Shown piece by piece: positions 23,021 to 24,432 of a DNA stretch of 64,000 nt. The stretch's first letter is position 1. Each line of letters starts with the position of its first letter. Position numbers and translations under genes: made by a program. The notes under the pieces were generated by a model. That model had not been told where the DNA came from. It did not search any database and saw only the letters and a list, made by a program, of their open reading frames with translations. Source of the DNA: a virus; IMG/VR virus record IMGVR_UViG_3300042890_001190, positions 1 through 64,000 of that record, one strand, 5' to 3'.

Positions 23021-23043
23021 CCCGCCACCGTGCGGGTTTTTTT
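23021..23043 (+). terminator. rho-independent terminator
   Basis: CCCGC-6 nt-GCGGG followed by seven T. It ends the 19.4-23.0 kb plus operon and overlaps the stop codon of the convergent DUF5710 gene by two bases. Confidence 0.88.
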
Positions 23044-23386
23044 ACGCCAGCATCTCACCCATTGCTGCTTGAGCCAAGGCGTCTGTGTGCTCGCAATCCT
23101 CCCATGGCGGAGTGGTGCAGTTGCACAGTGGCACGAAAACAGCAGGGCCGGTAATGACAGGCTTTGGGGCATGAACTTTGGGTTGGCTTTTCGGCTTCAA
23201 TTGCTTTGATGGCTTTACCCTCTTGCCGCCATACCAATCCTTGACGTCCTGACCCATCCAGAGGGCGAAGGCACGTATGTCCAAAGGGTCAATGACGTAC
23301 CAAGTTTTCCGGGCCGCATCCCAGCGAGCACCTTTGCTTTTTGCCAAGTCCTTTTGGCTGAACGGAACGTGCAAATCAACTCTCAT
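23042..23386 (-). CDS. DUF5710-domain protein
   Basis: 114 residues. The N-terminal MRVDLHVPFSQKDLAKSKGA with RWDAARKTWYV is the DUF5710 domain (..l.VpF.eKdeAK.lGArWd...k.WyV), often found alone or fused to nucleic-acid enzymes in phages. The C-terminal half is a Lys/Pro linker then a Cys/His patch (CNCTTPPWEDCEH). The ATG at 23386 has GGAG at six bases; TTG and ATG starts just upstream are less likely. It is directly downstream of the structured RNA on the same strand, so it may share its transcript. Confidence 0.78.
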   Translation of the reverse strand: MRVDLHVPFSQKDLAKSKGARWDAARKTWYVIDPLDIRAFALWMGQDVKDWYGGKRVKPSKQLKPKSQPKVHAPKPVITGPAVFVPLCNCTTPPWEDCEHTDALAQAAMGEMLA

Positions 23387-23399
23387 TTCCATCTCCAAA

Positions 23400-23996
23400 T
23401 TTTTGGACGAGTTTCCACTTACCCATGTATCCTGCCTGCCCTCCCCGTGTTCACTGGGGCGAGGGTTAGGGGCTACGTGAACCCTTTATCGACCTGACTT
23501 GCCCTGTTCGTTGCCTGCCTAAGCAGTTCCTACTGTGAGCTATCGGAGCCTAGTCCGCCTGCCTTCTGGCTTAGCGTTACAGAGAGGATGATGGCCCTCT
23601 GTACGTGCATCACAGATCGCTCTGTGAACCCAGACGTTTCCATTGCTGGAAATATGGATTTTCCCCTTGCGGGGAGGTCGTTTATTCCGTTCGCTCTCGC
23701 TACTTGGACACTCGGTTTAAAGTGGGGTTGGCCTTTTCAGTGTTCCCTTCGCTACCGCCATGGGGGACTGGTCTGGAGTGGGTGCCGGAGATTTCTGCCG
23801 CATAAGCTAACGCGCCCTGACGGGTGGGCGGCACAAATGCAAAAAGCTCTTTAGTCGGGGATCGAGCTTTAGGCTTGGTTGCCGCCAATCCGCAGTGCTG
23901 TAACACGTACGAATAGCATTGACGAAGCCCGAGCACCCACTAAAGAGCTTTCGGATGTCGCTTTACAGAGCTAAGCCGGGTTACCAATCCGACTAT
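23400..23996 (-). ncRNA. large structured non-coding RNA candidate (~600 nt)
   Basis: There is no credible gene in either strand over about 600 bp, in a genome that otherwise has almost no gaps. On the minus strand the sequence forms three perfect hairpins with GNRA loops: CCCC-GCAA-GGGG (23674-23663), TTTCCA-GCAA-TGGAAA (23652-23637) and CACAGA-GCGA-TCTGTG (23626-23611). It also has a perfect 13-bp long-range helix (23951-23939 with 23855-23843), the stem 23485-23480/23467-23462, and several GC-rich hairpins. The same hairpins read on the plus strand have no GNRA loops, which fixes the strand. A promoter lies at 24032-24003. Size, phage context and ornate folding recall GOLLD and ROOL RNAs; identity is not shown. 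The 3' end is uncertain, with no clear terminator. Confidence 0.75.
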
Positions 23997-24002
23997 GGCG
24001 TC

Positions 24003-24032
24003 AGTATATCAAAGACGTTGGTGGACGTGCAA
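24003..24032 (-). promoter_or_regulatory. promoter of the structured RNA
   Basis: Minus strand: TTGCAC (24032-24027), 18-bp spacer, extended -10 TGA-TATACT (TATACT at 24008-24003). Expected start near 23996. It begins immediately after the terminator of the upstream minus-strand gene, so the RNA is an independent unit. Confidence 0.68.
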
Positions 24033-24034
24033 GC

Positions 24035-24061
24035 AAAAAAACCCCACGTCTGAGGTGGGGT
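24035..24061 (-). terminator. terminator of the VRR-NUC gene
   Basis: Minus strand: ACCCCAC-7 nt-GTGGGGT followed by a run of T. It lies 42 nt after the nuclease stop and separates that gene from the structured RNA promoter. Confidence 0.85.
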
Positions 24062-24084: not shown

Positions 24085-24165
24085 ATGAAACACGCCTGTA
24101 GTTTAGCCGCAGGTGCGCAGCAGTGCAACGGCCTCTTCTACGCTGTTCACGATGTACAGGTCTGA
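24085..24165 (+). pseudogene. vestigial plus-strand gene start
   Basis: CACTCAAGGAGAAACACC-ATG matches the start signals of true plus-strand genes in the flanking operons (CTCAAGGAGAA at about 19979, 20739 and 25618), but the frame stops after 26 codons inside the antisense 3' end of the VRR-NUC gene. It looks like the remnant of a plus-strand gene cut off when the minus-strand island arrived. It could also be a real 26-residue peptide. Confidence 0.4.
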
Positions 24166-24387
24166 TCCCGGCCACTCGTCGTGGAACTTCTGCTCCGCGT
24201 CCGTCAGCCGGCGTGCCGATGGCGACTTAGCCCCGTCCTTCACCTCAATCAGCAGGGTCTCCCCACGGTAGCTCACCAGCAGGTCAAACAGCCCCTCGTC
24301 GTTGATCTGCTTGACGTAAGCACCCTCGGCACGCATGGCTGCCACGATCTCTTTTTCGTTGTCGTCTCTGCGAGCTGCTCGTCTCAT
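24103..24387 (-). CDS. VRR-NUC (PD-(D/E)XK) nuclease
   Basis: 94 residues, a minimal single-domain nuclease. RRDDNEKEIVAAMRAEGAYV gives the conserved N-terminal Glu, FDLLVSYRGETLLIEVKDG holds the D...ExK catalytic core, and SARRLTDAEQKFHDEWPGSD with LYIVNSVEEA is the C-terminal part. Phage VRR-NUC proteins of this size resemble Holliday-junction or structure-specific nucleases. The ATG at 24387 has AGGA nine bases upstream; an upstream ATG at 24417 lacks a ribosome site. It stands opposite to the surrounding operons. Confidence 0.82.
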   Translation of the reverse strand: MRRAARRDDNEKEIVAAMRAEGAYVKQINDEGLFDLLVSYRGETLLIEVKDGAKSPSARRLTDAEQKFHDEWPGSDLYIVNSVEEAVALLRTCG

Positions 24388-24432
24388 AGGGTTTGTCCTG
24401 AGAAAAATATATTGCATTCATCGTAACAGATG

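Follow-up and report, generated by a model that had tools for sequence, protein, structure and literature searches.

To our knowledge, few large ornate RNAs have been recognised in bacteria and phages, and we know of no function established for GOLLD or ROOL. GOLLD forms a closed RNA cage of fourteen molecules (a 14-mer), and in ROOL kissing loops between molecules hold such a cage together. In the sections consulted of PMC12286853, GOLLD is presented as a large and ornate RNA carried by phages and prophages, of unknown function, with loop-loop contacts and with a variable and a conserved part, and ROOL as a large phage-encoded RNA with multiple pseudoknots, found near tRNA islands; a setting near tRNA genes is reported there for both. 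According to the part consulted of PMC4825925, IsrK of the Gifsy-1 prophage of Salmonella is one small RNA with two isoforms, the first arising from part of the transcripts, and it has a small-RNA function when terminated and a messenger function when longer.

The stretch of DNA analysed in this work, hereafter the window, comprises 64,000 nucleotides of an IMG/VR virus record of 65,950 bases. An earlier note, made from the letters alone, had proposed that the minus strand of positions 23400-24032 encodes a large, highly structured non-coding RNA, either a member of GOLLD or ROOL or a new class. The existence of such an RNA is supported by homologues, by covariation and by strand evidence, and every feature named in that note was found where it had been placed. 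Membership of GOLLD or ROOL found no support: neither the window's RNA nor that of 24 related loci is matched by any family of Rfam 15, even at permissive thresholds. For the RNA of the window itself, no Rfam model is matched at E<=0.04 and GOLLD is unmatched at E<=10. The covariance models of group I and group II introns, HEARO, tmRNA and RNase P are likewise unmatched, and ARAGORN detects no tmRNA in the window. Rfam matches near the RNA to Betaproteobacteria_toxic_sRNA and anti-hemB fall on terminator-like stems and were rejected. No earlier description of this RNA was found in the literature searched, most subscription papers being outside its scope. As far as Rfam 15 and this literature go, the alternative of a new class is supported.

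The locus and its promoter

The RNA lies in about 600 bases between a nuclease-like gene and a DUF5710 gene, both on the minus strand, as are all features of the window described below. The open reading frames inside this interval are short and mechanical, and none is credible as a gene, as had been claimed. The nuclease-like gene (104 aa, 24103-24417; PHROG 93 endonuclease, E 1.2e-5) stands on the 5' side, outside the RNA, and is followed by a terminator-like stem (24034-24061, stem 24041-24061) that is kept in relatives and separates the gene from the RNA. The DUF5710 gene (115 aa, 23042-23389; Pfam DUF5710, E 2e-15) stands on the 3' side; in a comparison by eye it was not seen at the equivalent position in L124, L129, L136 and other relatives.

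Just behind the terminator, the candidate promoter of the earlier note, TTGCAC-N18-extended TATACT, was confirmed at 24032-24003, which places the predicted RNA start at about 23996. The -35 box TTGCAC is weak by itself and the site was missed by a consensus promoter scan; relatives nevertheless have it, identical or nearly so, after the same nuclease gene. Of 81 homologues, 54 have a promoter with at least 9 of 12 matches just upstream of the 5' domain, where simple base shuffling predicts 5.3. The predicted RNA, of about 580 bases, would extend from this promoter to about 23418. Its body, about 23418-23997, thus falls slightly inside the interval first proposed. Single-sequence folding gave z -2.2 for the minus strand and z -0.8 for the plus strand (20 shuffles each); since the minus strand folds just mildly better than chance, folding is insufficient alone and the case rests on the homologues.

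Homologues and distribution

Relatives of the window also have this promoter behind their nuclease gene, and after it an RNA that is similar but strongly diverged; a 19-base core pattern was derived from these RNAs. At least 120 viral stretches contain the pattern. Among 84,980 genomes of bacterial and archaeal species, its matches were two contigs from metagenome bins of beta-proteobacteria, which suggest Burkholderiales as hosts, and one chance match, in Buttiauxella, which sits in an apparent coding region. The homologues that the earlier note had suggested looking for in metagenomic phages thus exist: about 100 distinct ones were gathered, nearly all from IMG/VR phage contigs. The working set consists of 98 non-redundant instances, the Buttiauxella chance match included, for some of which the script found no 5' domain with its U-run.

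A model of the core matches 30 of 50 records at E<=0.1, a proportion that is no estimate of frequency since these records were picked as related or as known carriers. Records with a strong match hold one strong copy apiece, and G037 has two weak ones besides. Six phage records with related terminases gave no match to the core model. Hundreds of metagenome contigs encode close relatives of the large terminase of the window, and phage records such as HTVC027P and DSL-LC04 encode more distant ones. Among the RNA-positive genomes tested, most belong to this terminase lineage (57-88% identity). In two others the identity is 36-37%, over part of the protein only, which argues that the RNA has probably moved between phage lineages. 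The carriers are many freshwater (lake-water) phages of one lineage together with at least two genomes outside it. When the window and five relatives were searched against a collection of phage records, only short terminator-like or weak matches were obtained, and the collection thus yielded no cultured phage that carries this RNA. The one plasmid match, of 26 nt, is due to chance.

The window contains no tRNA gene. In several relatives (L116, L303, L222, L341, L308 and others), tRNA genes lie directly upstream of the RNA, and six-tRNA-gene phage clusters are present on its strand, near the RNA gene, at L303 2343-2864 and L294 7027-8044. A tRNA-like element of about 125 nt was seen at L120 917-1043 (relative G008). 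Its acceptor-like stem has 10 bp (GGGGACUAAG/CUUAGUCCCC), GGGUUCAAAUCCC resembles a T arm, and the element ends in CCA; ARAGORN calls no gene for it in L131, the same contig region. Other open reading frames were noticed by eye within or beside the locus in some relatives. HNH-type endonuclease-like frames occur downstream of the RNA in L120/L131 and L138, and between the 5' domain and the core in L300; these may be homing genes that use the locus as an insertion site. A small frame (...VEVKHRVGIENGKPVDASMN) is inserted in the locus of L116, upstream of the core, and a similar one in L301. The contig of L310, which bears the new RNA, also contains an Rfam int-alpA RNA at 47-114 (39.6 bits, gathering threshold 35.8).

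Structure of the three domains

Comparison of the homologues shows a modular RNA whose domains can be exchanged: the 5' domain, A, exists in several types and the 3' domain, D, in at least five, with a small core, C, between them. The architecture in the window is A3-C'-D6.

Domain A follows a general plan in which a 5' hairpin precedes a long closing helix, which encloses a strand pairing with the hairpin loop and is followed by a U-run; the closing helix and its U-run were located in most homologues. The A3 domain of the window spans 23840-23997. A covariance model, R2, built from ten A3 sequences with the window left out, matches the window once, at exactly these positions (91.5 bits, E 3.1e-20). 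In nine A3 sequences, window included, 89.9% of the cells of the proposed pairs are paired and 55 cells show double changes, against 20.3 +- 3.5 in shuffled alignments. None of 500 shuffles reaches 55, and slid versions of the structure all score far lower. The compensatory changes by which the earlier note would have its RNA judged are thus present. The perfect 13-bp long-range helix that it had described (23939-23951 with 23843-23855, spanning 109 nt) is the closing helix of A, ahead of the U-run, and double changes affect seven of the eight pairs of its variable half.

Two loop contacts characterise type A3. The loop CUGUAA (23963-23968) of hairpin 2 (23960-23971) pairs with UUACAG (23898-23903), the loop of an inner hairpin (23895-23906). 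All six pairs of this loop-loop helix show double changes among the nine sequences, and it may form within or between molecules. The loop UUGGU of hairpin 1 (23983-23987) pairs with ACCAA (23875-23879) as a pseudoknot, of which one pair shows double changes, three are invariant and one is poorly paired. Over all A types, loop pairing is represented by 57 different helices, each 6 bp or longer. It is strong with the own partner in 71 of 73 cases, against about 37 when partners are swapped between phages, with mean scores of 19.8 and 15.2; the swapped set includes relatives, which makes this contrast conservative.

The core opens with a short helix and a conserved bulge (ACGAY; CACGAYAGC / CGCGUUAGC), after which come two further pairs, a hairpin that varies and a tail rich in A. 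In many members, the bases after the tail pair with the hairpin loop, forming a loop-to-tail pseudoknot; 62% of the cells of this helix are paired, and it is hence non-universal. Double-change cells number 82 in 36 core sequences, against 32.0 +- 4.5 in shuffles (0/500). In a set of 13 divergent cores, 94.5% of the cells are paired, the first helix spans C-G, G-C, A-U and U-A, and 23 double-change cells are counted against 6.0 +- 2.0 (0/500). Both core structures were drawn after viewing the sequences, which gives them some advantage over slid versions. The core of the window, C' (23779-23827), is a shortened variant with the bulge CGCGUUAGC and a truncated hairpin. It was recognised through 44 nt identical to relative G015 and as the best window match of model R1, which is weak (E 0.0068) and dependent, R1 holding a near-identical row.

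The 3' domain, of type D6, occupies 23418-23780 and has spaced blocks in common with L341 and the L208 group (GUAGCGARAGC..., GGCAGGCAGG-U-CAUGGGUAA). The three GNRA hairpins reported within 64 nt are located here, at 23611-23674: CCCC-GCAA-GGGG (23663-23674), TTTCCA-GCAA-TGGAAA (23638-23653) and TCACAGA-GCGA-TCTGTGA (23611-23628). The hairpins that first drew attention therefore fall in D6, the strongest evidence being that of the 5' domain and core. D6 is represented by about three independent lineages, and the covariation counts given above cover A and C. Within the window, strong support from an independent model goes to A3 alone, C' being weak and D6 having few diverse relatives.

Exchange of domains between related phages

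The loci L208, L244 and L340/L342 have the promoter flank and the C-D6 part in common, and differ in the type of domain A (A2, A1 and A3, respectively). L208 and L340 are 98.1% identical over C-D6 and 95.6% over the promoter flank, and their alignment breaks at domain A. L208 and L244 align without a break through A, at 89% overall, and the A1/A2 replacement is in this case read from the domain type. The front domain is swapped like a cassette among related phages that keep promoter and C-D.

Some loci (L212, L231, L237, L304 and others) have an optional extra hairpin, inserted within D or between A and C, whose stem is of the GAUGGUG/CACCAUC type. The inserted module combines D-arm-like and T-arm-like hairpins and has, by eye only, the look of a tRNA elbow. 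Neither Rfam nor ARAGORN calls a tRNA in it, and it is absent from the window.

Nature and possible roles of the RNA

The reading that we somewhat favor is that the locus is a phage non-coding RNA gene for a structural RNA of three joined domains, acting in trans. The host RNA polymerase would start at the conserved promoter and produce, presumably as one full-length molecule, the RNA of about 580 nt. In the 5' domain, the long helix would close while the loop-loop pairing and the pseudoknot keep the domain compact. The conserved bulge and, in many relatives, the loop-to-tail pseudoknot would shape the core, and the 3' domain would add further stems. The RNA could then work by itself, together with further copies, or as a scaffold to which partners from the host or the phage bind.

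That the element acts as DNA, for instance as an origin of replication or a site for packaging, with repeats that merely resemble RNA stems, is highly improbable, even if its intergenic position and its single clear copy per RNA-positive genome would suit such a role. When 59 homologous closing helices were located by Watson-Crick pairs only, the remaining cells comprised 66 G-U, 9 A-C and 33 others; the corresponding counts are 22 G-U against 3 A-C in the core and 22 against 7 in A3. The preference for G-U over A-C fixes the minus strand and identifies the molecule as RNA, such an excess being unexpected from a DNA cruciform or from the opposite strand. The conserved promoter also speaks against a DNA element, and no GC-skew extremum occurs at the locus, for which reason a replication origin was rejected. 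As an RNA, the element could still be a leader. The next supported downstream gene, as called from ORF similarity only, is on the same strand at 65 of 89 loci, where a leader role may apply, and convergent at 24, so that the RNA is often not a leader. A leader of one particular gene was rejected, since the downstream genes differ.

The main rival of a trans-acting structural RNA is attenuation at the U-run behind domain A, which looks like an intrinsic terminator and would, without read-through, end the RNA at about 160 nt. Domain A would then be a switch, its 5' hairpin pairing either with a strand in the terminator hairpin or with a strand X behind the U-run, in a mutually exclusive manner; a stop would yield a small RNA of about 160 nt, and read-through the long RNA with any gene behind it. 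In line with this mechanism, most homologues have a closing helix followed by a U-run, the gene downstream is frequently on the same strand, and IsrK (PMC4825925, in the part consulted) is a published precedent of one small RNA with two isoforms. Strand X is strongly complementary to the 5' hairpin in 28 of 53 cases against about 10 after swapping, and this complementarity often overlaps the pseudoknot strand. We consider attenuation rather unlikely all the same: many homologues have no strand X, with about 4 nt from U-run to core, the downstream genes vary and can be convergent, and core and D are themselves conserved structures, unlike plain mRNA. It is more doubtful still that the RNA is a decoy against host defence, whose exchangeable domains would mimic host RNAs and titrate a nuclease or an RNA-binding factor. 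Domain exchange would reflect an arms race, consistent with the replacement of A between phages of common promoter and C-D, with the elbow-like insert of some members and with the tRNA genes adjoining the RNA in several relatives. The tRNA likeness is however one seen by eye that Rfam and ARAGORN do not share, the window has no such insert, and the defence target is putative.

For the trans-acting structural RNA, a bolder proposal is offered tentatively: that it represents a new class of large phage RNAs, built from a constant core to which exchangeable domains are attached on the 5' and 3' sides, and that variable loop-loop pairings give each phage type a specificity of its own. If true, this specificity could serve, for example, the self-assembly of like molecules, or a regulation able to tell self from a co-infecting relative. 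The RNA is absent from every library searched, and since close relatives trade one of its domains as a complete cassette, its function is testable.

Comparison with known large RNAs

IsrK, a dual small and messenger RNA as described in the part consulted of its source, would resemble the new RNA in mechanism, under the attenuation reading, rather than through any observed relation in sequence. The likeness to GOLLD is broader: both are large and phage-borne, often have tRNA genes adjacent (here in relatives, none being in the window), and combine loop-loop contacts with variable and conserved parts. The new RNA is however shorter, many GOLLD members exceeding 800 nt. Both its 5' and its 3' domains come in unrelated types, and its constant part is a short central core, whereas GOLLD has a universally conserved 3' region. 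With ROOL it shares large size, phage origin, pseudoknots and, in several relatives, nearby tRNA genes. It does not match the Rfam model of ROOL, and the whole-domain exchange seen here is unmentioned for ROOL in the sections consulted of PMC12286853. By analogy, the new RNA may work like GOLLD or ROOL, though the present tests place it in neither family.
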